DNA of 64,000 bases, taken from Microbotryum silenes-acaulis. Its lineage: Eukaryota > Basidiomycota > Microbotryomycetes > Microbotryales > Microbotryaceae. Both the position numbers and the translations under genes were made by a program. The notes beneath the pieces were generated by a model. That model did not search any database. It was given only the letters and a program-made list of their open reading frames with translations, and was not told the origin of the DNA. The stretch lies in the NCBI GenBank assembly GCA_003665825.1, contig QPFY01000010.1, positions 124,001-188,000 of the forward strand, in the 5' to 3' direction. Positions 15,728 to 53,020 of this stretch are shown here, piece by piece; the stretch's first letter is position 1; the number at the start of each line of letters is the position of its first letter.

Positions 15728-16039
15728 ATCAGTATGTAAATGAAAACTTACCGGTGGGAGAGGTCCATCCCTTTCGAGTTCGACCAGGTGCTTGCGATAC
15801 GCGTCCCATTCGGCGCGATAGGGGGCAAATTGAGGATCGGCGGTGAGTTGACCATGACGATCCTCAAATTCCGGGAAGGGAATGAGACCATGATGATATG
15901 AAGAGGAATTTTTGATGAGGGCTTCTCGGATTGTGAAGATGTTCATTTCGGCGTCGTTGTCGGCGGAAGAGGAGAGAGAAGCACGTCGCGACTGGCACTC
16001 CTGAGCTCCGTAGATATCCGGCGGATTGTCGGCTAACAT
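15728..16039 (-). CDS. Short ORF upstream of the transposase, cut by the duplication boundary
   Basis: A frame from ATG 16039 encodes MLADNPPDIYGAQECQSRRA and continues to a Pro-rich end (VELERDGPLPP) at a good donor (CCG|GTAAGT); an acceptor (GCATTGCAG) lies 42 bp on, just before the transposase ATG. Splicing there would stop after two codons, so this may be a leader exon, a separate small protein or noise. The duplicated block begins at 15991, inside this ORF: its first ~49 bp also occur, inverted, at the end of the B-C spacer. That stub shows that the spacer copy came from this locus. Confidence 0.35.
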
Positions 16040-16609
16040 TCTAATGTCCTACCTATTTATATATAACGCGGCTACCACCCCTGCGGCGTCATCCAAGAGA
16101 TTGCTTTACTACCTTTGTGTGTAAATTGCGGGCCCGCGACCTAAAATCGCTGTTATCGACTGTATTACGGCCTGGGCCGCCCGAGGTGAATGTGTCAGCA
16201 TACTGCTGAGTCTGCCCTACCTGGAAATAGTCCTAGGTACGGTACCGGTCTGCTTACCTGGACGCTAGCTAGCCTACTGGTTCTACTCACCGGTTGATCT
16301 GTGTCGCTTGATCTGTGTGGGTGATGTAGGTAAACGTGGACTATTGCGAATAGAAGAAGCTCGGACGGGACAGGTGCTGAGGTGGCCGATCGCACCGATC
16401 AAGTCCTCGCGAGAAATGTGAGAGAGTAGGGTATCATCGAGTATCGCAGTCACAAACCGCTCGAGGGAGTCGTCAAAATAATGGGGAGTACTGTCCGAGA
16501 AATGCACGCTTTGCTTCCGTTGATCACGATTGCTTGCGAACGCTGTGAGAGTGGCGAAGGCGAGCCGAGGTGGACGGGCTGCGGCGGGGCGAAGATGACA
16601 GCAAAGGGG
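16040..16609. other. Noncoding DNA inside the duplicated block
   Basis: The interval is duplicated at about 46979-47540. Frames differ between the copies because of the 7-bp indel, and no ORF has recognisable features. I see no functional element in it. Confidence 0.4.
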
Positions 16610-18021
16610 TCAGATCTCGATTAGACACTCGACTCGTACCAAGCACGGAGGCTCAACTCGCACAGACTTGTTGTAACAAAACTTGTTCGCAACATCGGCA
16701 GGGCACTCGCGGTGGTAGTCGGAGCATTGGCAGGGGACACCGTGGACGACGCTGTGCGAGTATCGGAAACCGTCGAATCCACCGCCGCGAATCAGAGGAA
16801 GCCGCACTGGTTGCCGCCCCCAGATGTCGAACGAGGCGCAGCCCCTCAGTACGCGGCGCATGCATCGATGGAAGCACCGGTGACGACGGGCTCGCCGTTC
16901 TTGGTGGTCTGGAAGTTGTCGTAGAAAGAGATCGACTTATTTGCGCAAACGAAATGAAGAACCAGCATCAGTATCTCGTAAGAAAGCAGAGGAGATGGCA
17001 GCGAGAATCTTACGAATCTGGGACACATTGGCCCGAGACCGAGACATTCATGAAGCCTGACTTTCTCTTCCAATCGCATTGGCCGGAGGTGTTGCATATC
17101 GGAGCGCCACGGTTGTCGTCGGGGCAGAGGGCCACTTAGATGCGTCGCAGACAGGGGTCTTGGGGATGCAGACGCCGCTGACCTAATTGTGGTAGCCGGT
17201 GTCGCAGGTGATGTCGCACTTGCCAGCGGAGGTGCAGATCGGGGTCGGGCACTTGATCACGTCGAAGACAGGGGTGTTGGGAAGGCAAGCACCGGTGACT
17301 CTCTTGTAGCCAGTGTTGCAGTTGATGGCACTTGTCGCAGAAATGTTCTCAAGTGGAATCTGATGATGACCACGGTTCAGTCCAATGAACAGGGACGAGA
17401 ACAGAGTGAGGTAAGATTCCAAAGAGCTGACCTGATGATGACCACGAGTCAGTCCAATGAACAGGGACGAGAACAGAGTGGCCAGAGACTAAGGGACAGC
17501 TCGCGGAAGGCTAGAAAGTGAAGCGTAAAGCTAATAAGGAGAGAGCTTAGAGATTAGTAAATTTAAGTAGGGAGATTGAGTGACTAAGGAGTGAATGACA
17601 CGCCGCTAGGCTCAATCCCAAGTACCATAATAGGAACGATAATCAGGTGAAGGACGATACAACCATATTTTCCTGTCAAGCACTTTCCTGAGCTGTTGCA
17701 CGGCGTGCCGTTGCCGTTGGGGCACGAAGGGCACTTGTACGGGTCATATACAGGGGTCTTAGGGACGCAGGTGCTTCCGACCTTGTTGTAGCCAGTGTTA
17801 GTTGATGCCACGAGCTGGTGGTGCATGCGACACCGTTCGATACGGTGGGGCAAAAGGAGACTTTGCATCTGCAGAGATAGGGGATCGAGGGCCGGAGTCA
17901 GTCTCAGTCGGGGGGACAGGGGTAGGCAGACGATACCAAAATGGCGCTGTGCCCAGGAATGACTCAAGTGGGGAAAGGTACTCACGGCATCGATCCAACA
18001 ATTGCGCTTGCGAAGGCGCAT
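16610..18021 (-). pseudogene. Broken gene for a Cys-rich secreted-type protein (copy next to A)
   Basis: Minus-strand pieces encode repeated Cys-rich modules: GYNKVGSTCVPKTPVYDPYK with CPSCPNGNGTPCNSSGKC, then NTGYKRVTGACLPNTPVFD with CPTPICTSAGKCDITCDTGY, then VSVSGQCVPDS in another frame, then FYDNFQTTKNGEP and a Cys-containing end. Modules of the form GY-x(n)-G-x-C-P-K-T-P-x-x-D are clearly repeated. A donor/acceptor pair (GTGAGTACC to CTCTGCAG, about 17870-17985) suggests an original spliced 5' exon. A TAG (about 17186) and several frame changes interrupt the series, so it cannot make one protein. The original function is unknown; secretion is inferred from Cys content. An almost identical inverted copy lies at 45567-46978. 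Confidence 0.6.
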
Positions 18022-18094
18022 GTTGCGAGTCTCAAGTGCTTCGGGGTCGCCACATCAGAAGTGAAGCGGCCTACCAGGTGCGGAGCAGCGGATC

Positions 18095-18241
18095 TGTAAA
18101 GTATGCGCCTCTGATGTGCATGAAATACACTCTCTCGTTCTTGACCGCTAGGCTAAAAGCAAGTCGTAACAAGAACTCGATAATTCTAGCTACTCAAAGG
18201 CTACTTATACTGCTGTTTCCGTAAGGCGTAGTCCCCTTACA
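18095..18241. repeat. Solo LTR-like repeat, 147 bp
   Basis: The segment starts TGTAAAGTATGCGCC and ends CCCCTTACA, giving TGTAA/TTACA inverted ends. It is the intact form of the interrupted repeat at 12427-13084 and is duplicated, inverted, at 45347-45493. No internal retrotransposon genes flank it. Confidence 0.6.
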
Positions 18242-18647
18242 GGATCGGCGTCACGGGCTTACGTAATCCACGGTCGAGTCGCGCTCAGCTCTTTCATCCG
18301 CGGAAGCGTTGGCTACAACCTTGAGAGCAGACCAGTGAATATTCGGTGCAAATTACTCTTCGCTGTAGTTTGTGTAGACGGCGTCAACCAAAGAGGCATG
18401 ATGCTGGCTGTAAGGCTTTTTTAAAGACGCCAACGCGAACGGCAAATATACATGTGATACTTTCACCGATACAGCAAGGGTAGATCTACGTGTTTTTCCG
18501 GTTCATACATGTGCTCCAAACCCAGATAATAAAGGGGTGGGCCAAATGCCCGAATCTCGTTCGAACCCCAATCGTGAATCACTGCGACGCGTCTACCATC
18601 CCACGTCCTCCTTTTATATCATTGAAGTCATTGGCTAACCGGTTGCC

Positions 18648-21600
18648 TTAAAAGGCGGCCTTGCGCAGGATGTCGGCCTCGCTGATGTTGCTGCGGCTGC
18701 ACATCGAAGAGAAGATGCCGTCCTTGTTGCGGAACAGGTTGATCGGCGTGTCGTACTCGGCGACCTGGCCTTCGGACATGACGAGCACGCGATCGCAGTC
18801 GATGATGGTACGCAGTCGGTGCGCAATGATCAGCAACGTCTTGTCGTTGAACTCGCTGCGAATCGTCTGCTGGATGTGGCTGTCGGTCGCGAGATCGACC
18901 GAGGCCGTCGCTTCGTCGAGCACGATCACCCGGCTGTCCTTGACGAGCGCGCGCGCGAGCGAGACTAGACTACGTTGGCCGACGGACAGGTTGAGCCCTT
19001 CGTCCTCGATGACCATGTCGAGCGTGAATCGGCTCGTCGCCGTCGTCGCTGCCGTCACCGCGGTCTCGTCTCCCGTTGCTGCGGTGGCGGTGGCGGTGGC
19101 GGTGGCTGTGTTGGTTGTGGCGGTGGCGGTGGCTGAGGTAACTTCGCCGGCGGGGACCTGGTCGACGAGGTACGCTCGCCTCATCGCGTCCCACAGCACA
19201 CGGTCCTCGTAAACGTTGAACGGGTCGAGGTTCGATCGGAGCGTTCCACTGAACAGAAGCGCATCCTGCGGGATGATCGCAATTTTCTCGCGCAGCTGAT
19301 TCAACCCGAGCTTGGACACGTCAATGCCGTCGATCGAGATCTTGCCCGACTGCAGCTCGACCATGCGAAACAGGCACTGCAGGATCGTCGATTTGCCCGC
19401 ACCGGTCCTGCCGACGACGCCAATCTTCTGCCCGCCCTCGATACGGAGACTGAGCCCCTTGAGGACCGGCGGTAGCTCCGGGCGGTACGACATGAAAACG
19501 TTTTCGAACTCGATCGTGCCGTGCGCAGGCCAGCTGGGGTCCGGGCGTGTCTCCTCGATGTCGGACGGCGCCTCTTGCTCGAGGTTGTTGGCGTAGTGCA
19601 GCATACGCTCGACCGAGTTCATATCGTTGTCTGTGTCGACAGTTGCAACCCAACGTCAGAGAACGAACTCCCAGAAAATGAGGGACCAAAGCTTCAACGC
19701 ACCGACTTGAGCCAACAAGGTGACCAGCCACGAGAATGCCCCCTGGACCGAGATGATGGTTGCCAAAAGTAAACCAGTCTTAGCAGGAGATACCGATTCC
19801 CTCGCGACGACAGTGAACAGAGCTACGAGAAGGACGAGAACGGTGCCGAATGCGTCGAGTCGAACCTGAAGCCACCGCTGATTGATGACCGTCAAGGCGT
19901 ACGCGCGATTTTCGATGTCGATGTACTTTTCATGCACCTTCAGGAACTGTTTCGGCCACATTTGAGAATCAGTCTACGTAAGAATCGTCTGAGGATGTAT
20001 GTTCCCCCGCATGAAAATACCTTGCCAGACTCTCCGAAAGCTCGGATCGTTGCGAGGCCGGTCAAACTCTCGCTGAAGTGCGCGTAGATAGATGACCGCA
20101 GCAAGTTATCTGCAGCGGAAGAATGAAACCCGAGTCAGCCCAGGAAGGGAAACTGCCTCGCTCAACACTGCTAGGCAGTCCATCAATGGTGTGCTCACCC
20201 AGTCGTTTGATCTCGCGTGCCGAGGTCCTATAAAAGCTGCCCACGTAGAAATAGGCACATAGGAGGAAGGCAATGACGACGAGGAAATACGGGACGACGA
20301 TGGATACGAGGATGACAGCCCCGATCACGGAGCCGCTTAATTCGAGCGCCCCTTCTATAGAATCGTTGAGCTCATTGTCGATTGTGTCGATGTCCTTCGA
20401 GAACCTATGCAGGGCACGTGGAAGCGGAACGCTATCAGCAACTCTGACGGACACCGCCGTCAGGCGAGGTTGGCGGAGTTCATGGGCGCACCTGTTCATG
20501 ATGCGACCTAGTGGGGTCGTATCAAAAAATGCCATTGAAGCATGCATGATCGATACAAGCGCCTGCTGGTGCAGAGACTTTGAGGCGTTGTAGCCGAGGA
20601 TGACGACCGCCAAAGTCATAGCGAAAGTCAAAACCGCCTGGGCGACACCGAGAAGGGCGTAAACACCCATGTATAAGCCGTTGGGAGAGTGAAAGTGACT
20701 GAAGCACAGGGGAGGTAGGATTGCTCAGTCCTCGATCAAATATACAACAGCGCCTGGACACATCGCCGCGGAGGGTAAGCAACTCACTCTTCCTGCCACC
20801 ACACGAGCCAATAGGAGCCTAGCACTTGCGCGCCTTGGGCGAGCGCCAGACTGAGGATGAGCAACGGCACCGTGATGTGGCCCTTGGCCGCACGCAGGAA
20901 GGCCATATAAACCCCGCCGTCGACTGCTCCCGTCGCACGCTCCTCCTCTTGCATCAGCCCTTTGCCCTTCTTCTTGCTCTTCTTCGGCGCGTCCACGAGC
21001 TCGCCCCCGGCGGCCGCGATGGCATCCTCCTCAACTTCCTCCTCCTCCTCGCGCTTCTCGGTCGCGTCGCCGCCAAACTCGGCGATCATCTTAGAGAACG
21101 GCCCATCCTTGTCCGCGATCAGATCCGCGTACGTGCCCTCCTGCTGGATCCGGCCCTGGTCGATCGTGATGATCCAATCAACGCGAGGCAAGAAGTGCAC
21201 GGCATGGGTCACGAGCACGCGTGTGCGGTCCTTCAGCGCACCGCAGATCGCATCGTCGAACAGAGCCTTGCCAACGTGAGCATCGACGGCCGAGAGCGGG
21301 TCGTCGAGCAGCACAATGTCCGCGTCAAAGTAGAGCGCACGCGCGATGTTGACGCGCTGCTTCTGCCCACCCGAGAGCGTCACACCCTTCTCGCCGATCT
21401 CGGTCGCGTCACCAAAGGGCAGCATTTCGATATCGGCGTCGAGGCACGCGTTCGTGATCGCGCGTTCGTACCGGGCCTGGTCGTAGGGCTGACCGAAGAG
21501 CACGTTGTCGCGCAACGACACGCTCTGCATCCAGGCGACTTGCGGTGCGTACGCGAGCGAGCCGTTGAAGGTGACCGAGCCCCGAGTGCGCTTCATCTCG

Positions 21601-23517
21601 CCGACCAAGGCCTGCAACAGCGAACTCTTGCCGGCTCCGATGGGGCCGACGATTGCACAAAGCTGACCCTTTGGGATGCGCAAGTTGATATTGCACAACT
21701 GCATCAGCTCCTCTTCCTCGGCCGAAAGATCGTGTTGCGATGGGGATGGTGTATTGACGGGCGGGGAACCTTTTGCTTTCCTTGCCTCGCTCTCGACAAT
21801 ATTCTTCCTTTTAGACGTGGCCTTGTGATTTTTCGATTCGGCCGCGCTCTCGGCAGGAGGTGGTCCTTCCCACTGAAAATCGGCGTCGTGGACTTGAATG
21901 GCGTACGCCGAAGAGCTATCGTACTGGAAACTATCCGCTCTTTTCTCAGCAAGAAGAACCTCGATGATCCTGCCCAACGCGTTGTGTGCATCCATCATGT
22001 GTGCCAGCCCGTTGGGCAGTAGGGTCAGTGGCAGATTGAGCAGATTGAACAAGGTCAACGAGGTGAAGATGATGGCCGGGTTCTGAGAGTGGCCAGTACC
22101 GGCATACACGAGAAAGGCGATGACGCTTGCCAACGTGGGCAGGCATGTGGCGAAAGCGGAACTGGCGGCTCGCATGGCGAGCAATCCTTTGAGGTGGGAC
22201 ATCTCTGCAGCGCGTATTCCACCGACCTTGGCGAGGTATGGTTGTTGCCAGCAGAAGAACTTGATGATAAGCTGGCCTCCGATCAATTCTTGGATATACT
22301 TGGCTCGCTTGTCGGTCCAAACCATGATTCTCTCTCGCGCCGCGAGCATCTTCGTCATTGCCCAAGCTTGCAGAGGGATTGCCAGTGCGAGGAAGAGGAA
22401 GCCAGCGAGCGAACTGGGGCCGAGATTGACGAGCAGTATGATTACGATGACTGCCATTTGAACAGGCGCCGTCCAAGTCATATGGAATAGGAAAACCGCA
22501 TTGTCGATCCTTGAAACGTCGGTCCCAATGTGGTTGACGAGGCGTCCGTTCGTCATGACCGTCCTTGCCTTGGCGGACAGCAACATGGACTGCCGATAAA
22601 TCAAGGCGATGAGAGTACCGCGAGCGAGCACGCCGGTGGTACCGGCACGGGAAAGATGCTGATTATTGCATGTCGAACGAATCAACTGCATGATGCAAAT
22701 GGTAAAGGCGAGACCGAGGCCATATCCGACGGGCTGGGCCTCATAGCCGGGGACGCCCTTGGCATGATTGTAGGCCTTGGTACTGAATTGGATGATGGCC
22801 TTGACGACGAGTGGCGAAGTCACTTGAGCGGTGTCAGCGACGACCTTGATCACACCGGCACTCCAGAACTGATACTTGAACGTGTCGCTCAACGCCAGGG
22901 CCAGGCCCGGCTTCCGTCGTCCATCCGCTGCGCCGAGGCCGATCGAGGCTCGCATTTTCCACCACCCACGACGCAGGACCGACGGCTTAAAAGACCCGTC
23001 ATCAAGCGATTGGTTCCACGCCTCGACCTCTTTGCGGCGACGCTCAAAGTGCTCCATCAGCTGGTCCGCGAGGGGACCGCACTCCATCGACGGAGGCAGC
23101 TTCCACAGGTCCGTCGCGACGAGCGTGCGCTGGTAGCCGACAATGAGCAAAGGTTGGATCCAGTGGAACGTCCATATCGAGAGCAACGACGGTTTGGGCC
23201 AGTCCGCAGCCTCGTCGAGCGAGGGGTAAGGATCACGTGGCTGTACACGTCCGAGGAAGGGGATGCTAGATTTGGACAATGTGGGCAGGGGTCAGCACGA
23301 AAATTCGGAAACCGCGATCACGTTTCCGTGCTCGGGTCGCGAAGGCATCGGCTTTTATTTAGTACGCGGAGTAAGTGCAAACTCACAATCTCGGCCTCGG
23401 CGATTTCACCTGCGGTTTTTCTTGTAGTACCGACGGGTCTTTGAGATCGTCGCCAGATACCGAATCGCCCAGCTCCGACCCCTTTTCGAAGTTGCCTGGG
23501 TATGAGGGTGCCACCAT
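18648..23517 (-). CDS. ABC transporter copy A, ABCC/YOR1-like multidrug exporter
   Basis: A full ABCC-type exporter of about 1,445 residues (TMD1-NBD1-TMD2-NBD2, no extra N-terminal TMD0), expected in plasma or vacuolar membrane, moving organic anions or drugs by ATP hydrolysis. Exon 1 (23387-23517; MVAPSYPGNFEKGSELGDS) was chosen as start because it splices in frame to exon 2 (20788-23265; IPFLGRVQPRDPYPSL). NBD1 has Walker A GPIGAGKSSLL, signature LSGGQKQR and Walker B DIVLLDD, with Asp in place of the catalytic Glu, as is usual for the degenerate ABCC site. NBD2 has GRTGAGKSTIL, LSVGQRS, VIVLDEA and IIAHRLRT. Later exons include 20199-20698, which holds an 87-bp in-frame intron (20405-20491). 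A simple Ala/Thr repeat lies in NBD2. The 5' part equals copy C; the 3' end and downstream flank equal copy B. The substrate cannot be read from sequence. Confidence 0.92.
19081..19135 (-). repeat. GCC/ACC microsatellite coding an Ala-Thr run inside NBD2 of copy A
   Basis: Tandem GCNACC-type codons give an Ala/Thr-rich loop between Walker A and the signature motif. Copy B has the same expansion (about 44455-44507); copy C lacks it and is 15 codons shorter there. It is one of the markers that groups the 3' ends of A and B. Confidence 0.85.
20405..20491 (-). other. 87-bp in-frame intron (exitron-like) in copy A
   Basis: The donor AACAG|GTGCGC and acceptor TGCATAG|GTTC bracket 87 bp, a multiple of three with no stop in frame. 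Removing it restores MNRFSKDIDTID, the conserved ABCC sequence seen uninterrupted in copy B. Retention would add 29 residues to an intracellular loop. Copy C has the same insert at 51222-51308. Confidence 0.75.
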
Positions 23518-23953
23518 TTGTCTCACAGTTTACGCCAATCTGTGGGAACAGGCGAAGCTTAACAGTGTCAGAAACGGCGAGTCGGCAGTAAGGGGTTCGA
23601 TGCACGATGAAGCTTACTATAGATGCCGTGTGGTGCGAGTCGGACTGACAGCGCCTGCTTGATTGCTTGCCCACGTGATCGGGGCTGCCAATAGAGTCGA
23701 AGCCTACCGCCTCCTGTGAGCTACTTTCTGTGTGCAGCACCCTGTGATAGACCAGTTTCGAGCTTCCCTATATCTTTGTAGTGGCACGGAAGCAGGTCGA
23801 TTCGAGTTGAATACCTCGGTAGTGTCGTGAAGTGCCGGGAGAGAAGTGTAGAGTGGCTCGGTGACTGGTGATCGTTCGAGTCATACCCGTGCAACAGCTT
23901 GCGACAGCGTGCGGCGTTTCACTGGAGGGCCTGTCATAAGGAGGTGCCTCTAG

Positions 23954-24115
23954 TACAGTCAGTCAGACCTGAGAAAATTTATATCGCCCAATATTATACC
24001 TGTCAAAATTTATGGACCTTTCAATCTCCCGACTTTTTTGGCTGACAGAACCTGTCCAATCTTATACCTTATAATTTATGGGTTTACAGGTCAAATTATA
24101 AGGTAAGAGAGAGCC
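23954..24115. mobile_element. Orphan pogo-like terminus with AT-rich subterminal repeats
   Basis: TACAGT then CAGTCAGACCTGAGAAAATT repeats the left terminus of the pogo element in the same orientation, with an extra CAGT. It is followed by several AT-rich CCTGTC/AATTTATGG motifs to about 24110. There is no transposase and no inverted partner, so it is a fragment or a remnant of a MITE. It abuts the right end of the duplicated block. Confidence 0.5.
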
Positions 24116-24258
24116 GGAAATGAGCGATTGATCAGGAATTGGCCTCTCCTTCGGCGTTCTTGTTGACGAGCCGCCTGCTGGAAGAGTCCGAAATGCCCCG
24201 AAACAGCCGAGAAGCGAGCACAGGAGAGCAAAGGCGGCGGTTGACACGTTGACAGGCT

Positions 24259-24317
24259 AGTAGCTGGCGGCGGCGCGTGCTGAGATCAAATTGTGGCCGG
24301 TGATCGGCCCGATTACT
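24259..24317 (+). repeat. 59-bp segment reused as filler in the B-C spacer
   Basis: These 59 bp (AGTAGCTGG ... GATTACT) recur in the same orientation and length at 47587-47645. It lies 305 bp outside the right end of the duplicated block A, in the upstream region of the oxidase gene. Confidence 0.9.
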
Positions 24318-24581
24318 ACCGAACTCGGACCGCTCCCGGCGCGCCGTAATCTGAACCCCGGAGTCATGATCGAGCTGCCCGGTGCGGCGCATGGATCGCT
24401 CGCCCCTAAATAAAGGGCCTGAGCTCGAGTTGACCGACGGGCGAAGACGTACGTATCCAACCGCATGGCGGCCTTCGTTTCGTAACCTCCTCCGCCCATC
24501 CTCTTCTCACCGACCTACACTCTCCACCACAGGCCCAATTTCTCGCCCATAAGTCTTTCGCCCTGTGCGCGAGTTGGCAGG

Positions 24582-27825: not shown

Positions 27826-29847
<2,022 letters not shown>

Positions 29848-35880: not shown

Positions 35881-36206
35881 GGTTGCTTGCGTACTTAAGC
35901 TTGGCTAGCAATGCAGTGATGAAGCATAGCAACGTGTATGATGACATCAAGTAAAGATAGCTTTACGAACAGACAGGGAAAAGGCGATAACGATACACAT
36001 CACAAGTGTAGGGGAATACAAGTATATCAACAGAGCGTCGTTACGAGAGCAAGCGAGCCTGTGTCAAGCATACGATAAAAATAGAGAAGGGGGGTCCTTA
36101 CGTAAGTCCCCGGTTTGGTTCTGGGACGATGATGATGCACACAATAAGGGACAAGCGGATGGAATATAATAGACAATCGATGGTCGATGTTATCGTCGCT
36201 TGCGAA
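35881..36206. other. Convergent 3' intergenic region
   Basis: Both neighbouring genes end here. The sequence is relatively AT-rich and has no supported ORF. Confidence 0.45.
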
Positions 36207-39872: not shown

Positions 39873-42800
39873 ATGGTCGCGAACGTGCCGTCCCCATCAT
39901 CCTCGGTCACACGGGGTGACACAGGCTCCAAGGAGGACGTGGAAAAGCACTCGGAAGAGGGCAGCCACCAAGACGATCTCGCCCACAAGCCGACGTTCGG
40001 AGATCTCGAGAAGCAACAGACGAACGCGACGCAGGCCTCCGCGATCCTGAAGGAGAAGCCCAAGCTGCAAAGGGATAAGCTCAAGTTGTAGGTCCTTTCT
40101 CTCCTCCCACGCTTCATCGTCATAGGGGACATTCGAGCGCATTGCATTTACTGACATGCCATGTACACCTCATACCTTCGTCGCGCACGCCTCCACCCTC
40201 GGGCTTGTTCTCGCTTCGTCATTCCTCGATCCTCGATGCCCTTGCCCGATCCCCGCCGCAAAATTCAATTTGCAGTATCCCCTTCCTCGGACGTGTACAG
40301 CCACGTGATCCTTACCCCTCGCTCGACGAGGCTGCGGACTGGCCCAAACCGTCGTTGCTCTCGATATGGACGTTCCACTGGATCCAACCCTTGCTCATTG
40401 TCGGCTACCAGCGCACGCTCGTCGCGACGGACCTGTGGAAGCTGCCTCCGTCGATGGAGTGCGGTCCCCTCGCGGACCAGCTGATGGAGCACTTTGAGCG
40501 CCGCCGCAAAGAGGTCGAGGCGTGGAACCAATCGCTTGATGACGGGTCTTTTAAGCCGTCGGTCCTGCGTCGTGGGTGGTGGAAAATGCGAGCCTCGATC
40601 GGCCTCGGCGCAGCGGATGGACGACGGAAGCCGGGCCTGGCCCTGGCGTTGAGCGACACGTTCAAGTATCAGTTCTGGAGTGCCGGTGTGATCAAGGTCG
40701 TCGCTGACACCGCTCAAGTGACTTCGCCACTCGTAACCAAGGCTCTTATTCAATTCAGTACCAAGGCCTACTATCATGCCAAGGGCGTTCCCGGCTATGA
40801 GCCGCAGTCGGTCGGCTATGGAGTGGCGCTCGCCATCATCGTCTGGCTTATGCAAGTTATTGCATCGCTCGGGTCCCACCAATTCTTCGCGCGCAGTGCC
40901 AGTACCGGTGTCCTGGCTCGCAGTACCCTCATCGCGTCGATCTACCGCCGGTCAACGACCTTGACGGGCAAGGCGAGGACGGTCATGACCAATGGACGTC
41001 TCGTCAACCACGTCGGCACGGATGTGTCGAGGATCGATTTCGCCGCTGGCTTCTTCCACATGTCTTGGACGGCACCAATTCAGATGATCATCATCATCAT
41101 CATTCTTCTCGTCAACCTCGGCCCCAGTTCGCTCGCAGGCATCTTTTTCCTCTTCTTGTCGATCCCGCCTCAGGGTTGGGCCATGAAGAAGATGTTGGCG
41201 GCCCGCAAGCGTGCCATGGTCTGGACCGACAAGCGCGCCAAACTGATTCAGGAGCTCTTGGGCGGCCAACGCATCATCAAGTTCTTCAGTTGGCAACAGT
41301 CTTACCTTCGCAAGTTGCGCGAAATCCGTGAATCCGAAATGTTCCACGTCCGCAACCTGCTCGCCATCCGCTCGGCGACTTCGGCCGTGTCGATGTCGAT
41401 GCCAGCCATCGCGACCGTCGTCGCCTTCCTCGTCTACTCCGGCACGGGCCACTCGCAGAACTCGGCCATCATCTTCACCTCGCTGACCTTGTTCAACTTG
41501 TTGCGCATGCCGTTGATGATGCTGCCCGTCTCACTCGCGACCATGACCGACGCACACAACGCCTTGGGTCGGATCACCGAAGTATTCCTTGCCGAATCTC
41601 GCTCGGGCACGTACCAATTTGACGCCGCCTCCGAATTTGCAATTCAGGTCGATGACGCTGATTTCCAATGGGAAGGCGCCCCACCCGAGGAAGCAGCCGC
41701 CGGTTCGAAGAAGGAGCAGCAAGCCTTGGTGCACAAGCTCAAGCAGGAGCAGAAGAAGGCGAAGCACGACAAGAAGAAGGGCGAAAAGAAGAAGCTCCCT
41801 GCACCGGAGCAAGTCATCGTCGACGAGAAGAAACCCGGTGTTGCACTCGACCTTGCCAACAAAGCTCCTGCCGACGGTGTCGACGCTGTCGACACGGACG
41901 TCTCGAGGGGGGTGCCTGCACCTGCTGAACCAACCCCTGACGAGTCGCAAGGCGAGTCGCCGGCCGATAAGGAAGAGGACCTCATGCAGCTTAGCCACAT
42001 CAGCCTTCGCATTCCCAAGGGTCAATTGTGCGCGATCGTCGGCCCCGTCGGAGCCGGCAAGAGTTCGCTGTTGCAGGCCTTGGTCGGCGAGATGAAGCGT
42101 ACTCGGGGCTCGGTCACCTTCAACGGCTCGCTCGCGTACGCGCCGCAAGTCGCCTGGATGCAGAGCGTGTCGTTGCGCGACAACGTGCTCTTCGGTCAGC
42201 CCTACGACCAGGCCCGGTACGAACGCGCGATCACGAACGCGTGCCTCGACGCCGATATCGAAATGCTGCCCTTTGGTGACGCGACCGAGATCGGCGAGAA
42301 GGGTGTGACGCTCTCGGGTGGGCAGAAGCAGCGCGTCAACATCGCGCGTGCGCTCTACTTTGACGCGGACATTGTGCTGCTCGACGACCCGCTCTCGGCC
42401 GTCGATGCTCACGTTGGCAAGGCTCTGTTCGACGATGCGATCTGCGGTGCGCTGAAGGACCGCACACGCGTGCTCGTGACCCATGCCGTGCACTTCTTGC
42501 CTCGCGTTGATTGGATCATCACGATCGACCAGGGCCGGATCCAGCAGGAGGGCACGTACGCGGATCTGATCGCGGACAAGGATGGGCCGTTCTCTAAGAT
42601 GATCGCCGAGTTTGGCGGCGACGCGACCGAGAAGCGCGAGGAGGAGGAGGAAGTTGAGGAGGATGCCATCGCGGCCGCCGGGGGCGAGCTCGTGGACGCG
42701 CCGAAGAAGAGCAAGAAGAAGGGCAAAGGGCTGATGCAAGAGGAGGAGCGTGCGACGGGAGCAGTCGACGGCGGGGTTTATATGGCCTTCCTGCGTGCGG

Positions 42801-44940
42801 CCAAGGGCCACATCACGGTGCCGTTGCTCATCCTCAGTCTGGCGCTCGCCCAAGGCGCGCAAGTGCTAGGCTCCTATTGGCTCGTGTGGTGGCAGGAAGA
42901 GTGTGTATTTCTGCTTTCTGCTTTTGACACGCCGTCCGGGCTGTTCCGAAAAGCTGCTCTTGCTGATATGCTTTGCCTTCGTTCATCAGTCACTTCCACA
43001 CCCAGAATGGCTTCTACATGGGCATCTACGCCCTCCTCGGGATACTGCAAGCCGTCTTTTCCTTCCTCGTGGGTTTGGCCTCCGTCTTCATCGGCTACAA
43101 CGCATCTCGTTCGCTTCATCGTGGCGCGATCCAGGGTGTCATGCACGCACCCATGTCCTTCTTCGATACCACCCCTCTTGGGCGCATCATGAACAGGTTT
43201 TCCAAGGACATTGACACCATCGACAACACGCTAAACGACTCTATGCGCATGGCTCTTAACACGTTTGGTTCCGTCCTTGGCGCCATCATCCTGATCTCGA
43301 TTGTCCAGCCCTACTTCCTGATCGTAGTCACCTTCATCTTGTGCTGCTACTTCTACGCTGCCAGCTTTTACCGCACTTCTGCGCGTGAGATCAAGCGATT
43401 GGGTAAGTGCATCACGCGATTCGGTATTCACCGATGGCATGCTGATCTGTCTCGTTTGAGGTCCTCAGACAACTTGCTTCGCTCTTCCCTGTACGCTCAC
43501 TTCAGTGAAACTCTGTCCGGCTTGGCCACCATCCGCGCTTTTGGAGAAACGGACAAGGTCAGCATTAGTCCTACAGTCGGCTGTCCTAGGAGTTTGAGAG
43601 ACTGATTCGGCGTCATATCGCTTTCCCCACACAGTTCTTGAAACGCAACGAAGAGTACATCGACATCGAGAATCGCGCCTACGCCCTCACCGTCATCAAC
43701 CAGCGATGGCTCGGATTTCGTCTCGATATGTTCGGTGGTCTCCTTGTGTTCATCGTCGCGATCTTTGGTGTCGCCACGAGGACCAAAGTGTCACCCGCAC
43801 AGACCGGTTTGATTCTGTCGTACATCCTCTCGATCCAAGCTGCGTTCTCTTGGATGGTTCGTCAACTCGCCGAAGTTGGTATGTACAGGCCTAATGTTTC
43901 GGTTCCCCGCTTTCTAGTAGTCGGTTGTCTGACGTTGGGTTGCAACTGTCGACACAGAAAACGATATGAACTCGGTCGAGCGTATGCTGCACTACGCCAA
44001 CAACCTCGAGCAAGAGGCGCCGTCCGACATCGAGGAGACACGCCCGGACCCCAGCTGGCCTGCGCACGGCGCGATCGAGTTCGAAAACGTTTTCATGTCG
44101 TACCGCCCGGAGCTACCGCCGGTCCTCAAGGGGCTCAGTCTCCGTATCGAGGGCGGGCAGAAGATTGGCGTCGTCGGCAGGACCGGTGCGGGCAAATCGA
44201 CAATCCTGCAGTGCCTGTTTCGCATGGTCGAGCTGCAGTCGGGCAAGATCTCGATCGACGGCATTGACGTGTCCAAGCTCGGGTTGAATCAGCTGCGCGA
44301 GAAAATTGCGATCATCCCGCAGGATGCGCTTCTGTTCAGTGGAACGCTCCGATCGAACCTCGACCCGTTCAACGTTTACGAGGACCGTGTGCTGTGGGAC
44401 GCGATGAGGCGAGCGTACCTCGTCGACCAGGTCCCCGCCGGCGAAGTTACCTCAGCCACCGCCACCGCCACAACCAACACAGCCACCGCCACCGCCACCG
44501 CCACCGCAGCAACGGGAGACGAGACCGCGGTGACGGCAGCGACGACGGCGACGAGCCGATTCACGCTCGACATGGTCATCGAGGACGAAGGGCTCAACCT
44601 GTCCGTCGGCCAACGTAGTCTAGTCTCGCTCGCGCGCGCGCTCGTCAAGGACAGCCGGGTGATCGTGCTCGACGAAGCGACGGCCTCGGTCGATCTCGCG
44701 ACCGACAGCCACATCCAGCAGACGATTCGCAGCGAGTTCAACGACAAGACGTTGCTGATCATTGCGCACCGACTGCGTACCATCATCGACTGCGATCGCG
44801 TGCTCGTCATGTCCGAAGGCCAGGTCGCCGAGTACGACACGCCGATCAACCTGTTCCGCAACAAGGACGGCATCTTCTCTTCGATGTGCAGCCGCAGCAA
44901 CATCAGCGAGGCCGACATCCTGCGCAAGGCCGCCTTTTAA
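39873..44940 (+). CDS. ABC transporter copy B, ABCC/YOR1-like, chimeric gene
   Basis: Six exons (39873-40087, 40276-42900, 42990-43402, 43469-43557, 43635-43878, 43958-44940) join in frame to 1,522 residues. The ATG at 39873 was chosen because exon 1 (MVANVPSPSSSVTRGDTGS...) splices in frame to the shared IPFLGRVQPRDPYPSL. Domain order and motifs are as in copy A, with GPVGAGKSSLL in NBD1. The first ~170 residues of exon 2, all of NBD1 and most of NBD2 are nearly identical to A and C, but TMD1, TMD2 and the TMD1-NBD1 linker differ strongly. The linker is longer and has a Lys-rich run (KKAKHDKKKGEKKK). It lacks the 87-bp intron of A and C. From within NBD2 (after 44071) the sequence and the downstream flank are those of A. 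Its membrane domains probably give a different substrate range. Confidence 0.92.
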
Positions 44941-45346
44941 GGCAACCGGTTAGCCAATGACTTCAATGATATAAAAGGAGGACGTGGGATGGTAGACGCG
45001 TCGCAGTGATTCACGATTGGGGTTCGAACGAGATTCGGGCATTTGGCCCACCCCTTTATTATCTGGGTTTGGAGCACATGTATGAACCGGAAAAACACGT
45101 AGATCTACCCTTGCTGTATCGGTGAAAGTATCACATGTATATTTGCCGTTCGCGTTGGCGTCTTTAAAAAAGCCTTACAGCCAGCATCATGCCTCTTTGG
45201 TTGACGCCGTCTACACAAACTACAGCGAAGAGTAATTTGCACCGAATATTCACTGGTCTGCTCTCAAGGTTGTAGCCAACGCTTCCGCGGATGAAAGAGC
45301 TGAGCGCGACTCGACCGTGGATTACGTAAGCCCGTGACGCCGATCC

Positions 45347-45493
45347 TGTAAGGGGACTACGCCTTACGGAAACAGCAGTATAAGTAGCCTTTGAGTAGCT
45401 AGAATTATCGAGTTCTTGTTACGACTTGCTTTTAGCCTAGCGGTCAAGAACGAGAGAGTGTATTTCATGCACATCAGAGGCGCATACTTTACA
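45347..45493. repeat. Solo LTR-like repeat, inverted copy of 18095-18241
   Basis: This is the same 147 bp in opposite orientation, with the TGTAA/TTACA ends intact. It was carried along in the duplication. Confidence 0.6.
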
Positions 45494-45566
45494 GATCCGC
45501 TGCTCCGCACCTGGTAGGCCGCTTCACTTCTGATGTGGCGACCCCGAAGCACTTGAGACTCGCAAC

Positions 45567-46978
45567 ATGCGCCTTCGCAAGCGCAATTGTTGGATCGATG
45601 CCGTGAGTACCTTTCCCCACTTGAGTCATTCCTGGGCACAGCGCCATTTTGGTATCGTCTGCCTACCCCTGTCCCCCCGACTGAGACTGACTCCGGCCCT
45701 CGATCCCCTATCTCTGCAGATGCAAAGTCTCCTTTTGCCCCACCGTATCGAACGGTGTCGCATGCACCACCAGCTCGTGGCATCAACTAACACTGGCTAC
45801 AACAAGGTCGGAAGCACCTGCGTCCCTAAGACCCCTGTATATGACCCGTACAAGTGTCCTTCGTGCCCCAACGGCAACGGCACGCCGTGCAACAGCTCAG
45901 GAAAGTGCTTGTCAGGAAAATATGGTTGTATCGTCCTTCACCTGATTATCGTTCCTATTATGGTACTTGGGATTGAGCCTAGCGGCGTGTCATTCACTCC
46001 TTAGTCACTCAATCTCCCTACTTAAATTTACTAGTCTCTAAGCTCTCTCCTTATTAGCTTTACGCTTCACTTTCTAGCCTTCCGCGAGCTGTCCCTTAGT
46101 CTCTGGCCACTCTGTTCTCGTCCCTGTTCATTGGACTGACTCGTGGTCATCATCAGGTCAGCTCTTTGGAATCTTACCTCACTCTGTTCTCGTCCCTGTT
46201 CATTGGACTGAGTCGTGGTCATCATCAGATTCCACTTGAGAACATTTCTGCGACAAGTGCCATCAACTGCAACACTGGCTACAAGAGAGTCACCGGTGCT
46301 TGCCTTCCCAACACCCCTGTCTTCGACGTGATCAAGTGCCCGACCCCGATCTGCACCTCCGCTGGCAAGTGCGACATCACCTGCGACACCGGCTACCACA
46401 ATTAGGTCAGCGGCGTCTGCATCCCCAAGACCCCTGTCTGCGACGCATCTAAGTGGCCCTCTGCCCCGACGACAACCGTGGCGCTCCGATATGCAACACC
46501 TCCGGCCAATGCGATTGGAAGAGAAAGTCAGGCTTCATGAATGTCTCGGTCTCGGGCCAATGTGTCCCAGATTCGTGAGATTCTCGCTGCCATCTCCTCT
46601 GCTTTCTTACGAGATACTGATGCTGGTTCTTCATTTCGTTTGCGCAAATAAGTCGATCTCTTTCTACGACAACTTCCAGACCACCAAGAACGGCGAGCCC
46701 GCCGTCACCGGTGCTTCCATCGATGCATGCGCCGCGTACTGAGGGGCTGCGCCTCGTTCGACATCTGGGGGCGGCAACCAGTGCGGCTTCCTCTGATTCG
46801 CGGCGGTGGATTCGACGGTTTCCGATACTCGCACAGCGTCGTCCACGGTGTCCCCTGCCAATGCTCCGACTACCACCGCGAGTGCCCTGCCGATGTTGCG
46901 AACAAGTTTTGTTACAACAAGTCTGTGCGAGTTGAGCCTCCGTGCTTGGTACGAGTCGAGTGTCTAATCGAGATCTGA
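45567..46978 (+). pseudogene. Broken gene for a Cys-rich secreted-type protein (spacer copy)
   Basis: This is the inverted, nearly identical copy of 16610-18021. It shows the same modules in the same order (GYNKVGSTCVPKTPVYDPYK, NTGYKRVTGACLPNTPVFD, CPTPICTSAGKCDITCDTGY) and the same stop after CDTGYHN, so the breaks predate the duplication. Small differences (for example SGKCLSGK against SGKCLTGK, ETAVT-region silent changes aside) are single bases. A spliced 5' exon starting MRLRKRNCWIDA at 45567 is plausible (donor GCC|GTGAGT), but it is not hydrophobic enough to be called a signal peptide. Confidence 0.6.
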
Positions 46979-47586
46979 CCCCTTTGCTGTCATCTTCGCC
47001 CCGCCGCAGCCCGTCCACCTCGGCTCGCCTTCGCCACTCTCACAGCGTTCGCAAGCAATCGTGATCAACGGAAGCAAAGCGTGCATTTCTCGGACAGTAC
47101 TCCCCATTATTTTGACGACTCCCTCGAGCGGTTTGTGACTGCGATACTCGATGATACCCTACTCTCTCACATTTCTCGCGAGGACTTGATCGGTGCGATC
47201 GGCCACCTGTCCCGTCCGAGCTCCTTCTATTCGCAATAGTCCACGTTTACCTACATCACCCACACAGATCAAGCGACACAGATCAACCGGTGAGTAGAAC
47301 CAGTAGGCTAGCTAGCGTCCAGGTAAGCAGACCGGTACCGTACCTAGGACTATTTCCAGGTAGGGCAGACTCAGCAGTATGCTGACACATTCACCTCGGG
47401 CGGCCCAGGCCGTAATACAGTCGATAACAGCGATTTTAGGTCGCGGGCCCGCAATTTACACACAAAGGTAGTAAAGCAATCTCTTGGATGACGCCGCATG
47501 GGTGGTAGCCGCGTTATATATAAATAGGTAGGACATTAGAATTTTAGCCGATAATCCGCCGGATATCTACGGAGCTCAGGAGTGCC

Positions 47587-47645
47587 AGTAGCTGGCGGCG
47601 GCGCGTGCTGAGATCAAATTGTGGCCGGTGATCGGCCCGATTACT
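47587..47645 (+). repeat. Filler piece 1 in the B-C spacer (copy of 24259-24317)
   Basis: The 59 bp match position by position. The left joint shares AGT with the end of the A block (15991-15993 inverted); the right joint shares ACT with the next piece. Confidence 0.9.
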
Positions 47646-47763
47646 CTGTAGGCGCGTGCGCGTCTCACCGACCACGCGGTCGACTCCCCGTCGAGTCATT
47701 CAATCTCAGTCGTTTTGGGTCGGCCGTCGGTTCGAATGCACAATTCGCGAGATAAGCGACTAG
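47643..47763 (+). repeat. Filler piece 2 in the B-C spacer (copy of 13266-13386)
   Basis: The 121 bp match with one substitution. The left joint shares ACT with piece 1; the right joint shares ACTAG with the other end of the A block (23950-23954 inverted). Confidence 0.9.
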
Positions 47764-50700
47764 AGGCACCTCCTTATGACAGGCCCTCCAGTGAAACGCC
47801 GCACGCTGTCGCAAGCTGTTGCACGGGTATGACTCGAACGATCACCAGTCACCGAGCCACTCTACACTTCTCTCCCGGCACTTCACGACACTACCGAGGT
47901 ATTCAACTCGAATCGACCTGCTTCCGTGCCACTACAAAGATATAGGGAAGCTCGAAACTGGTCTATCACAGGGTGCTGCACACAGAAAGTAGCTCACAGG
48001 AGGCGGTAGGCTTCGACTCTATTGGCAGCCCCGATCACGTGGGCAAGCAATCAAGCAGGCGCTGTCAGTCCGACTCGCACCACACGGCATCTATAGTAAG
48101 CTTCATCGTGCATCGAACCCCTTACTGCCGACTCGCCGTTTCTGACACTGTTAAGCTTCGCCTGTTCCCACAGATTGGCGTAAACTGTGAGACAAATGGT
48201 GGCACCCTCATACCCAGGCAACTTCGAAAAGGGGTCGGAGCTGGGCGATTCGGTATCTGGCGACGATCTCAAAGACCCGTCGGTACTACAAGAAAAACCG
48301 CAGGTGAAATCGCCGAGGCCGAGATTGTGAGTTTGCACTTACTCCGCGTACTAAATAAAAGCCGATGCCTTCGCGACCCGAGCACGGAAACGTGATCGCG
48401 GTTTCTGAATTTTCGTGCTGACCCCTGCCCACATTGTCCAAATCTAGCATCCCCTTCCTCGGACGTGTACAGCCACGTGATCCTTACCCCTCGCTCGACG
48501 AGGCTGCGGACTGGCCCAAACCGTCGTTGCTCTCGATATGGACGTTCCACTGGATCCAACCTTTGCTCATTGTCGGCTACCAGCGCACGCTCGTCGCGAC
48601 GGACCTGTGGAAGCTGCCTCCGTCGATGGAGTGCGGTCCCCTCGCGGACCAGCTGATGGAGCACTTTGAGCGCCGCCGCAAAGAGGTCGAGGCGTGGAAC
48701 CAATCGCTTGATGACGGGTCTTTTAAGCCGTCGGTCCTGCGTCGTGGGTGGTGGAAAATGCGAGCCTCGATCGGCCTCGGCGCAGCGGATGGACGACGGA
48801 AGCCGGGCCTGGCCCTGGCGTTGAGCGACACGTTCAAGTATCAGTTCTGGAGTGCCGGTGTGATCAAGGTCGTCGCTGACACCGCTCAAGTGACTTCGCC
48901 ACTCGTCGTCAAGGCCATCATCCAATTCAGTACCAAGGCCTACAATCATGCCAAGGGCGTCCCCGGCTATGAGGCCCAGCCCGTCGGATATGGCCTCGGT
49001 CTCGCCTTTACCATTTGCATCATGCAGTTGATTCGTTCGACATGCAATAATCAGCATCTTTCCCGTGCCGGTACCACCGGCGTGCTCGCTCGCGGTACTC
49101 TCATCGCCTTGATTTATCGGCAGTCCATGTTGCTGTCCGCCAAGGCAAGGACGGTCATGACGAACGGACGCCTCGTCAACCACATTGGGACCGACGTTTC
49201 AAGGATCGACACTGCGGTTTTTCTATTCCATAGGACTTGGGCGGCGCCTGTTCAAATGGCAGTCATCGTAATCATACTGCTCGTCAATCTCGGCCCCAGT
49301 TCGCTCGCTGGCTTCCTCTTCCTCGCACTGGCAATCCCTCTGCAAGCTTGGGCAATGACGAAGATGCTCGCGGCGCGAGAGAGAATCATGGTTTGGACCG
49401 ACAAGCGAGCCAAGTATATCCAAGAATTGATCGGAGGCCAGCTTATCATCAAGTTCTTCTGCTGGCAACAACCATACCTCGCCAAGGTCGGTGGAATACG
49501 CGCTGCAGAGATGTCCCACCTCAAAGGATTGCTCGCCATGCGAGCCGCCAGTTCCGCTTTCGCCACATGCCTGCCCACGTTGGCAAGCGTCATCGCCTTT
49601 CTCGTGTATGCCGGTACTGGCCACTCTCAGAACCCGGCCATCATCTTCACCTCGTTAACCTTGTTCAATCTGCTCAATCTGCCACTGACCCTACTGCCCA
49701 ACGGGCTGGCACACATGATGGACGCACACAACGCGTTGGGCAGGATCATCGAGGTTCTTCTTGCTGAGAAAAGAGCGGATAGTTTCCAGTACGATAGCTC
49801 TTCGGCGTACGCCATTCAAGTCCACGACGCCGATTTTCAGTGGGAAGGACCACCTCCTGCCGAGAGCGCGGCCGAATCGAAAAATCACAAGGCCACGTCT
49901 AAAAGGAAGAATATTGTCGAGAGCGAGGCAAGGAAAGCAAAAGGTTCCCCGCCCGTCAATACACCATCCCCATCGCAACACGATCTTTCGGCCGAGGAAG
50001 AGGAGCTGATGCAGTTGTGCAATATCAACTTGCGCATCCCAAAGGGTCAGCTTTGTGCAATCGTCGGCCCCATCGGAGCCGGCAAGAGTTCGCTGTTGCA
50101 GGCCTTGGTCGGCGAGATGAAGCGCACTCGGGGCTCGGTCACCTTCAACGGCTCGCTCGCGTACGCACCGCAAGTCGCCTGGATGCAGAGCGTGTCGTTG
50201 CGCGACAACGTGCTCTTCGGTCAGCCCTACGACCAGGCCCGGTACGAACGCGCGATCACGAACGCGTGCCTCGACGCCGATATCGAAATGCTGCCCTTTG
50301 GTGACGCGACCGAGATCGGCGAGAAGGGTGTGACGCTCTCGGGTGGGCAGAAGCAGCGCGTCAACATCGCGCGTGCGCTCTACTTTGACGCGGACATTGT
50401 GCTGCTCGACGACCCGCTCTCGGCCGTCGATGCTCACGTTGGCAAGGCTCTGTTCGACGATGCGATCTGCGGTGCGCTGAAGGACCGCACACGCGTGCTC
50501 GTGACCCATGCCGTGCACTTCTTGCCTCGCGTTGATTGGATCATCACGATCGACCAGGGCCGGATCCAGCAGGAGGGCACGTACGCGGATCTGATCGCGG
50601 ACAAGGATGGGCCGTTCTCTAAGATGATCGCCGAGTTTGGCGGCGACGCGACCGAGAAGCGCGAGGAGGAGGAGGAAGTTGAGGAGGATGCCATCGCGGC

Positions 50701-52477
50701 CGCCGGGGGCGAGCTCGTGGACGCGCCGAAGAAGAGCAAGAAGAAGGGCAAAGGGCTGATGCAAGAGGAGGAGCGTGCGACGGGAGCAGTCGACGGCGGG
50801 GTTTATATGGCCTTCCTGCGTGCGGCCAAGGGCCACATCACGGTGCCGTTGCTCATCCTCAGTCTGGCGCTCGCCCAAGGCGCGCAAGTGCTAGGCTCCT
50901 ATTGGCTCGTGTGGTGGCAGGAAGAGTGAGTTGCTTACCCTCCGCGGCGATGTGTCCAGGCGCTGTTGTATATTTGATCGAGGACTGAGCAGTCCTACCT
51001 CCCCTGTGCTTCAGTCACTTTCACTCTCCCAACGGCTTATACATGGGTGTTTACGCCCTTCTCGGTGTCGCCCAGGCGGTTTTGACTTTCGCTATGACTT
51101 TGGCGGTCGTCATCCTCGGCTACAACGCCTCAAAGTCTCTGCACCAGCAGGCGCTTGTATCGATCATGCATGCTTCAATGGCATTTTTTGATACGACCCC
51201 ACTAGGTCGCATCATGAACAGGTGCGCCCATGAACTCCGCCAACCTCGCCTGACGGCGGTGTCCGTCAGAGTTGCTGATAGCGTTCCGCTTCCACGTGCC
51301 CTGCATAGGTTCTCGAAGGACATCGACACAATCGACAATGAGCTCAACGATTCTATAGAAGGGGCGCTCGAATTAAGCGGCTCCGTGATCGGGGCTGTCA
51401 TCCTCGTATCCATCGTCGTCCCGTATTTCCTCGTCGTCATTGCCTTCCTCCTATGTGCCTATTTCTACGTGGGCAGCTTTTATAGGACCTCGGCACGCGA
51501 GATCAAACGACTGGGTGAGCACACCATTGATGGACTGCCTAGCAGTGTTGAGCGAGGCAGTTTCCCTTCCTGGGCTGACTCGGGTTTCATTCTTCCGCTG
51601 CAGATAACTTGCTGCGGTCATCTATCTACGCGCACTTCAGCGAGAGTTTGACCGGCCTCGCAACGATCCGAGCTTTCGGAGAGTCTGGCAAGGTATTTTC
51701 ATGCGGGGGAACATACATCCTCAGACGATTCTTACGTAGACTGATTCTCAAATGTGGCCGAAACAGTTCCTGAAGGTGCATGAAAAGTACATCGACATCG
51801 AAAATCGCGCGTACGCCTTGACGGTCATCAATCAGCGGTGGCTTCAGGTTCGACTCGACGCATTCGGCACCGTTCTCGTCCTTCTCGTAGCTCTGTTCAC
51901 TGTCGTCGCGAGGGAATCGGTGTCTCCTGCTAAGACTGGTTTACTTTTGGCAACCATCATCTCGGTCCAGGGGGCATTCTCGTGGCTGGTCACCTTGTTG
52001 GCTCAAGTCGGTGCGTTGAAGCTACGGTCCCTCATTTTCTGGGAGTTCGTTCTCTGACGTTGGGTTGCAACTGTCGACACAGGAAACGATATGAACTCGG
52101 TCGAGCGTATGCTGCACTACGCCAACAACCTCGAGCAAGAGGCGCCGTCCGACATCGAGGAGACACGCCCGGACCCCAGCTGGCCTGCGCACGGCACGAT
52201 CGAGTTCGAAAACGTTTTCATGTCGTACCGCCCGGAGCTACCGCCGGTCCTCAAGGGGCTCAGTCTCCGTATCGAGGGCGGGCAGAAGATTGGCGTCGTC
52301 GGCAGGACCGGTGCGGGCAAATCGACAATCCTGCAGTGCCTGTTTCGCATGGTCGAGCTGCAGTCGGGCAAGATCTCGATCGACGGCATTGACGTGTCCA
52401 AGCTCGGGTTGAATCAGCTGCGCGAGAAAATTGCGATCATCCCGCAGGATGCGCTTCTGTTCAGTGGAACGCTCCGG
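47759..52477 (+). repeat. Spacer-right part of the duplicated block (5' flank and body of A copied as C)
   Basis: From 47759 the sequence follows the A block inwards from 23954: 675 bp of upstream DNA, then the gene body. Copy C is A-like at 52196 (HGTIEF) and no longer A-like at 52477 (CCGGTC against CCGATC), so the junction with the resident gene lies between these points. Confidence 0.88.
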
Positions 52478-53020
52478 TCGAACCTCGACCCGTTCAACGT
52501 TTACGAGGACCGTGTGCTGTGGGACGCGATGAGGCGAGCGTACCTCGTCGACCAGGTCCCCGCCGGCGAAGTCACCTCGGCCACGGCCACCGCCGTCGCC
52601 ACCGTGGAAAAGGGAGATGGAACGACGGCGACGAGCCGATTTACGCTCGATATGGTCATCGAGGACGAAGGGCTCAACCTGTCCGTCGGCCAACGTAGTC
52701 TAGTCTCGCTCGCGCGCGCGCTCGTCAAGGACAGCCGGGTGATCGTGCTTGACGAAGCGACGGCCTCGGTCGATCTCGCGACCGACAGCCACATCCAGCA
52801 GACGATTCGCAGCGAGTTCAACGACAAGACGTTGCTGATCATTGCGCACCGACTGCGTACCATCATCGACTGCGATCGCGTGCTCGTCATGTCCGAAGGC
52901 CAGGTCGCCGAGTACGACACGCCGATCAACCTGTTCCGCAACAAGGACGGCATCTTCTCTTCGATGTGCAGCCGCAGCAACATCTGCGAGGCCGACATCC
53001 TGCGCAAGGCCGTCTGTTAA
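48196..53020 (+). CDS. ABC transporter copy C, ABCC/YOR1-like, chimeric gene
   Basis: The start (ATG 48196, MVAPSYPGNFEKGSELGDS) and exon plan are those of copy A: exon 1 48196-48326, a ~2.5-kb exon 2 to 50926, the exon with the 87-bp in-frame intron at 51222-51308, two short exons and a last exon ending at TAA 53018-53020. The product is about 1,430 residues. NBD1 and NBD2 motifs are intact (GPIGAGKSSLL, LSGGQKQR, GRTGAGKSTIL, LSVGQRS). It differs from A by few residues in TMD1 (HRTWAAPVQ against HMTWTAPVQ), but after NBD2 Walker A it diverges: no Ala/Thr repeat (AVATVEKGDG instead) and the end CEADILRKAVC. Its downstream DNA is unique. It therefore joins the 5' part of A to the 3' end of an older resident gene. 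Confidence 0.92.
51222..51308 (+). other. 87-bp in-frame intron (exitron-like) in copy C
   Basis: Same sequence and position as 20405-20491 in copy A, open in frame and flanked by GT..AG. It is absent from copy B. Confidence 0.75.

Follow-up and report, generated by a model that had tools for sequence, protein, structure and literature searches.

A 64,000-nucleotide stretch of the genome of the fungus Microbotryum silenes-acaulis (the window; positions 124,001 to 188,000 of contig QPFY01000010.1, written C10, in a 29.85-Mb genome of 88 contigs, the one genome analysed) contains three ABC transporter genes, here called A, B and C, and coordinates below count from the first letter of this window. 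The locus of A and the interval between B and C are circular permutations of one 8.13-kb unit: an ABCC-type gene with its flanks lies at A, and a second copy of the same unit, circularly permuted, runs from the middle of gene B to the middle of gene C. The reading that we favour, at a probability of roughly 0.48, is that the unit of the A locus was resolved, in the manner of a circle, by one exchange in the second nucleotide-binding domain (NBD2) of a neighbouring paralogue, termed R.

Self-BLAST of the window aligned positions 18627-23954 of the minus strand with 47759-53041 of the plus strand at 98.5% identity, and 15988-20406 (minus) with 43195-47592 (plus) at 93%, the latter figure being lowered by the diverged sequence of gene B. 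Base-by-base maps agree with these alignments and confirm what a sequence-only reading of this DNA had proposed, namely that the block 15991-23954 matches, inverted, the run from NBD2 of B through the spacer to NBD2 of C. The second copy includes the 3' end of B with its downstream DNA (44352..47592, plus strand), which is a copy of 19236-15988 (minus) with 12 differences and one 8-bp gap, and the upstream region and 5' part of C (47759..52476, plus strand), which is a copy of 23954-19237 (minus). Over the whole unit the copies differ at 28 of 8,139 aligned sites, a count in which about 14 bases in segment overlaps enter twice, and are ~99.7% alike. The half that pairs A with C carries 16 differences in 4,839 sites, and the half that pairs A with B carries 12 in 3,300, one of which (15990/47590) sits at an inversion end (Fisher p 0.85); this equal divergence fits a single event. 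The arithmetic of the repeat unit also proved sound: the stop of C minus the stop of B gives 8,080 bp, which, with the 45 bp missing in C and the 8 bp missing in the spacer, makes 8,133, equal to the block 15991-23954 (7,964) plus 169. Since kilobases agree at more than 99% identity, chance is excluded. The circular permutation, the single event and the sealed ends that had been proposed are borne out by the permuted maps, by the similar ages of the two halves and by an exact joint in the spacer, respectively.

The spacer between B and C contains both outer ends of the A locus in a head-to-tail join. Positions 47587..47645 (plus strand) equal the right outer end of that locus, 24259..24317 (plus), at 59 of 59 bases, while 47643..47768 (plus) matches the left outer end, 13266..13391 (plus), at 98.4%. 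The two meet at 47643..47645 (plus), 3 bases that are common to both, with zero letters added or lost, so that a microhomology of 3 bases is all that marks the closing joint. In searches that scored every candidate and skipped very common words, the left outer end matched itself and the spacer only (2 of 2 candidates scored), as did the right outer end beyond 24264 (28 of 28); the first few bases of 24259-24317 are common to a transposon piece described below. The order of the segments is thereby flipped, the 24317 side being joined to the 13266 side and the ends found in B and C being continuous in A. Such joined outer ends of one locus inside the other are a published signature of circular intermediates; indeed, for human segmental duplications, the accessible part of Chicote et al. 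(2020; PMC7450558) gives the flip from A-B/C-D to B-A/D-C as their mark. About 169 bp of the spacer had previously been taken for filler. A templated or foreign insert was considered and ruled out, both flanks of the A locus being found there: the supposed filler is native DNA, made of the 59 bp matching 24259-24317 and the 126 bp matching 13266-13391. The ends of the circle had likewise been placed at 15991 and 23954, which turn out to be an inversion end and a transposon insertion; in pre-inversion order, the proper positions are 13266 and 24317.

At its other boundary, the unit changes partner within NBD2. The base-by-base map confines the exchange to 44072..44351 of B (plus strand; conservatively 43928-44447, as set by the end and start of dense own sequence) and to 52197..52476 of C (plus strand), which is the same place in NBD2. 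The last base of B's own type in this domain is 44071 and the first of C's own type is 52477, equivalent to 44352 in B, the inner bounds resting on one base each. Hence the claim that B and C switch at the same position of NBD2 holds, with a single interval. The whole unit is flanked by two hybrids of reciprocal make-up with a common switch point, which is the pattern of a Campbell-type crossover. The insertion point is not free of homology, as its ends lie in NBD2, which is common to the paralogues; in the reverse direction of transfer it would be the 3-base site instead. Which genes are the hybrids depends on the direction of transfer. Chimerism, in three intact genes, is thus what remains of the earlier statement that two chimeric genes had been created; their number does not, the chimera being either A alone or B and C, according to direction.

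The genes of the window bear introns, and all three transporters, which lie on a single 1.3-Mb contig, are full-length and intact, with spliced open frames and starts (exon 1 and intron 1 were placed by inspection). Gene A (18648..23517, minus strand) encodes an intact ABCC-type transporter and possesses intron 1 and five later introns; in the map of single-nucleotide polymorphisms (SNPs), its 5' part is C-like and its 3' part B-like. Gene B (39873..44940, plus strand), likewise intact and ABCC-type, has intron 1 and four later introns, and shows its own sequence in exon 1 and in the two transmembrane domains (TMD1 and TMD2), with A-type sequence in an N-terminal tract, NBD1 and NBD2. The third intact ABCC-type gene, C (48196..53020, plus strand), is A-type up to 52476 and has its own sequence beyond. 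A Pfam search whose input was the front and back pieces of B and C, leaving out gene A and the TMD2 regions, returned ABC_tran in both kinds of piece, together with ABC_membrane in the front ones. A profile of A and B gave 61 matches in the PDB, and all 60 of those listed are of the ABCC subfamily, including ABCC2, MRP1 and YCF1; ABCC5 matches the profile across both halves in a single stretch. Two TMD-NBD halves and ABCC relatives place A, B and C, as predicted proteins, among the ABCC (MRP/YCF1-like) transporters. The label of a drug-exporter family, which they had been given, is unproven, the proteins being ABCC-type by sequence only. The closest further gene genome-wide, as judged by TMD1, lies on C4 and is 46% identical in TMD1 and ~49-58% identical in NBD1.

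Gene B is a mosaic with respect to A. In a codon-by-codon comparison, ~32% of bases differ between the two in TMD1 with its linker and in TMD2, as against 2 of 978 in NBD2. Two further A-like tracts are the N-terminal T1 (40277..40734, plus strand), where 3 of 459 bases differ, the edge base 40735 included, and T2, which runs from NBD1 to the start of TMD2 (42048..42900, plus strand; 2 of 852 bases different). Fourfold-degenerate sites tell the same story, with differences at 3 of 87 (3%) in T1, 2 of 150 (1%) in T2 and 1 of 176 (1%) in NBD2, compared with 63 of 121 (52%) in TMD1 plus linker and 61 of 83 (73%) in TMD2. Selection at the protein level, as a source of the A-like tracts, was ruled out by silent sites that are nearly identical too. 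Ectopic gene conversion between paralogues explains tracts identical at silent sites beside strongly diverged ones, but alone it cannot make the joint or the extra 8 kb. The tracts of B may accordingly be ascribed to recent gene conversion of conserved domains between old paralogues. The outer borders of T1 and T2 coincide with the two ends of exon 2, and the third tract, that of NBD2, starts inside an intron. Private differences within T1 and T2 number three in B, one in A and none in C; on these small numbers, the conversion may predate the split of A and C.

In the own 3' part of gene C, 18 of 540 coding bases differ from A, in addition to 45 bp of indels, and the stretch 52652-52984 within that part is nearly identical to A, with one difference. 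Four A-C differences also fall within 30 bases, at 49212-49241 in C (22501-22472 in A), where 3 of 14 TMD1 residues of C are changed; C is probably the changed copy, since B sides with A at three of the four. A wider view would take the cluster as a modular exchange system, in which recurrent homologous exchange, through conversion tracts and the circle-type event, holds neighbouring transporters nearly identical in their N-terminal segment and their ATP-driven engine domains, while their membrane domains stay anciently diverged. We hold this generalisation to be improbable; if it were true, new pumps would arise through the joining of whole modules.

The A locus also carries a split transposon. 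Two of its stretches, ~13392-15987 and ~23955-24258, are without counterpart in the spacer. The first holds the larger transposon piece (13398..15987), with its transposase on the minus strand and HTH_Tnp_Tc5 (PF03221) and DDE_1 (PF03184) in separate open frames; the second holds the smaller piece (23956..24264), which carries the other terminal repeat and whose final few bases are common to the flank. Each piece has one copy of a 25-base terminal repeat, and the two copies now point in the same direction. Searches with each piece on its own show the two next to each other elsewhere in the genome, and among the loci fetched, 17 distinct places preserve the joint that is broken in the A copy. 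Of the 9 full-length copies displayed, 8 have a TA immediately beyond each end, and in the ninth it is shifted. A helix-turn-helix and DDE transposase, terminal inverted repeats and a TA target mark the element as a DNA transposon, which we take to be of the pogo/Tigger kind. The inverted segment (15988..24258) comprises the A block and the smaller transposon piece; its ends fit the order of the spacer base by base, with 3 bases in common. Since both are absent from the spacer, transposon entry and inversion most simply postdate the duplication. The inverted orientation of A is thus the product of a later, separate inversion through the transposon, and once the two changes are undone, A, B and C all share one orientation. 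Beside the transposon site, ~17 bp of the A locus, lying between short direct repeats, are missing in the spacer (13387-13399/23955 versus 47763; by eye). Two full-length transposon copies elsewhere (one on C4 and one on C11) have identical 12 flanking letters on each side, and their surroundings may be duplicated between contigs.

According to the favoured reading, the unit would have been copied from the A locus (A and its flanks, from 13266 to 24317 in pre-inversion order), and its outer ends would have been sealed through the 3 common bases into a circle or an equivalent loop. One homologous exchange in NBD2 of R would then have given B, with its front from R and its back from A, and C, composed the other way round. 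Afterwards, a pogo-type transposon inserted into a TA directly upstream of A, and A was turned round by an inversion whose ends lie in the transposon and at the downstream edge of A. We lean towards A as the donor because the A unit lies ~16 kb from gene B, a spacing that requires no coincidence of local paralogues, while a popped-out circle rejoined at random in 29.85 Mb would rarely land so near.

Several observations weigh against this reading. All SNP classes are symmetric between the two donor directions, and the assignment of A as donor and of B and C as chimeras, as the sequence-only reading had stated it, does not follow from a map that the reverse direction fits as well. The free circle itself is something that we infer, and for one derived from A the preferred partner should be A itself, where homology extends over 8 kb, ahead of R. 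Furthermore, divergence across eight segments is not fully homogeneous (p 0.025); NBD1 with TMD2 is low in differences (2 of 1,986), the NBD2 part of A versus C is high (5 of 466), and four of the changes in TMD1 cluster. Genes and repeats crossing 13265|13266 or 24317|24318, which were sought as indicators of direction, included none that was informative (one repeat search covering the best 40 of 156 candidates), and a genome-wide search for copies of the 3' flank of C returned itself only. An Rfam scan and a tRNA scan (ARAGORN, bacterial code) each gave 0 matches, and a plasmid tblastn search, which gave matches below 60% identity only, was not used.

The reverse course is possible, if rather unlikely. 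In it, B and C would be an old tandem pair kept alike by gene conversion, from which a crossover between their NBD2s excised a circle made of the front of C, the back of B and the spacer; after opening at 47643-47645, it would have been inserted by end joining between 13265 and 24318, leaving A as the sole chimera. Such a course yields the same joint, the same exchange interval and the same equal ages; direct repeats lend themselves well to pop-out when they hold long identical tracts, and tandem neighbours readily undergo gene conversion, which would account for the T1, T2 and NBD2 tracts. Against this, an insertion ~16 kb from the source needs chance or local contact, and no gene or repeat was found to span 13265|24318 as an empty site (in one search, among the best 40 of 156 candidates), an absence that proves little. 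Less probable still is a course without any circle, in which the repair of a broken NBD2 in R took A as its template, jumped back at the 3-base match from the downstream to the upstream edge of the A locus and ended in NBD2 again; in a variant of the same idea, the template would have been A in a transient tandem duplication. The end product would be identical, the sequence offers no counter-sign, and a microhomology of 3 bases is as compatible with a polymerase jump as with end joining; for their own cases, Chicote et al. (2020), in the text available from PMC7450558, leave open insertion by non-homologous end joining or by microhomology-mediated break-induced replication/fork stalling and template switching (MMBIR/FoSTeS). 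It does, however, require ~8 kb of synthesis, one backward jump and an exact homologous closure.

An assembly artefact, with repeats collapsed or mis-joined, is what copies so closely alike (~99.7%) might invite, and yet it is very improbable: A, B and C share one long contig, the joint and the inversion ends are exact, and A has a transposon insertion, an inversion and scattered SNPs of its own, which make a duplication in assembly unlikely. A simple unequal crossover between A and R was also considered and rejected, as it would carry the glyoxal oxidase gene to the right of A (PF07250; 25548-26447) and all intervening DNA into the spacer. Neither that gene nor any DNA between A and B beyond 24317 was seen in the spacer in genome searches (best 40 of 200, 40 of 50 and 40 of 93 candidates). 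What those searches did bring up was the A unit, some 70-79% matches on C23, C15 and C2, and three dispersed repeats.

Of these dispersed repeats, the longest, of ~337 bp, lies at 45920-46256, with its A copy near 17668-17332, inside the unit, and has more than 35 other copies or part-copies (among the best 40 of 200 candidates). Another, of ~120-150 bp, at 45347-45494 and related to 12963-13085, stands both beside and inside the A unit, with dozens of copies among the matches listed, while a third, of ~85 bp, lies inside the unit at 47357-47441 and recurs at 76-84% identity in more than 30 places among the matches listed. The 70-79% matches concern the spacer at 46640-46940 and its surroundings, and lie at C23:110562, C23:113408, C15:113448 and C2:2241900; the two neighbouring matches on C23 perhaps reflect a small gene family. 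A cysteine-rich, coding-like stretch adjoining 46640-46940 has three ~71-base direct repeats, and the frames of it that were tried gave no Pfam match. The DNA to the left of the A locus is repeat-rich, and at 10632-11402 it holds a DUF6570 open frame (PF20209) that is presumably Helitron-like.

Resolved to the base, this is a circularly permuted duplication whose partner was a paralogous gene and not neutral DNA, and three open transporter genes remain intact. Events of the circle type could add gene copies and new domain combinations in one step. Records of this sort are, without relatives, blind to direction, and what appears to be filler may be resolved once later rearrangements have been undone. 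The kind of event is already known, both as circular intermediates and as presumed homologous integration; what is particular here is that the exchange falls inside a protein-coding paralogue and that three genes keep open frames. Among the papers that limited literature searches listed, none dealt with the integration of circular DNA into an ABC paralogue in a fungus.

The human segmental duplications of Chicote et al. (PMC7450558) resemble the present case in that the ends of one locus are joined inside the other. As far as the accessible text describes them, their closing joints are direct, or have one inserted base or a 2-base microhomology, compared with 3 bases in the present unit, and they lack homology at either breakpoint, whereas the present opening point is inside a homologous gene, which makes one of the two joints an intragenic exchange. 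For the duplications C1-C3, which were attributed to extrachromosomal circular DNA (eccDNA) in humans (Takahashi and Innan 2020, PMC7188851), the likeness is that paralogous regions are circularly permuted; the donor was undecided for two of the three, and homologous exchange in a coding gene, present here, is not among the features reported in the portion of that article at hand. The serial KIT translocation of colour-sided cattle (Durkin et al. 2012, as described in PMC3420103) had a second step in which a circle presumably integrated, through homology, at a locus with which it has sequence in common. In the cattle, according to that description, hundreds of kilobases returned to their own locus, whereas here 8 kb would have entered a paralogue, and the genes to either side are intact. 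In evolved yeast, the eccDNA pXI2-6 formed without repeats, probably at an 8-nt microhomology, and then integrated in tandem (PMC4352087, in the part available). Closure at a short microhomology is common to both; pXI2-6 was observed directly in an engineered strain and integrated at its own locus, in contrast to the circle proposed here, which is read from sequence. For an event of this kind, a record as well preserved as that of A, B and C is rarely met.

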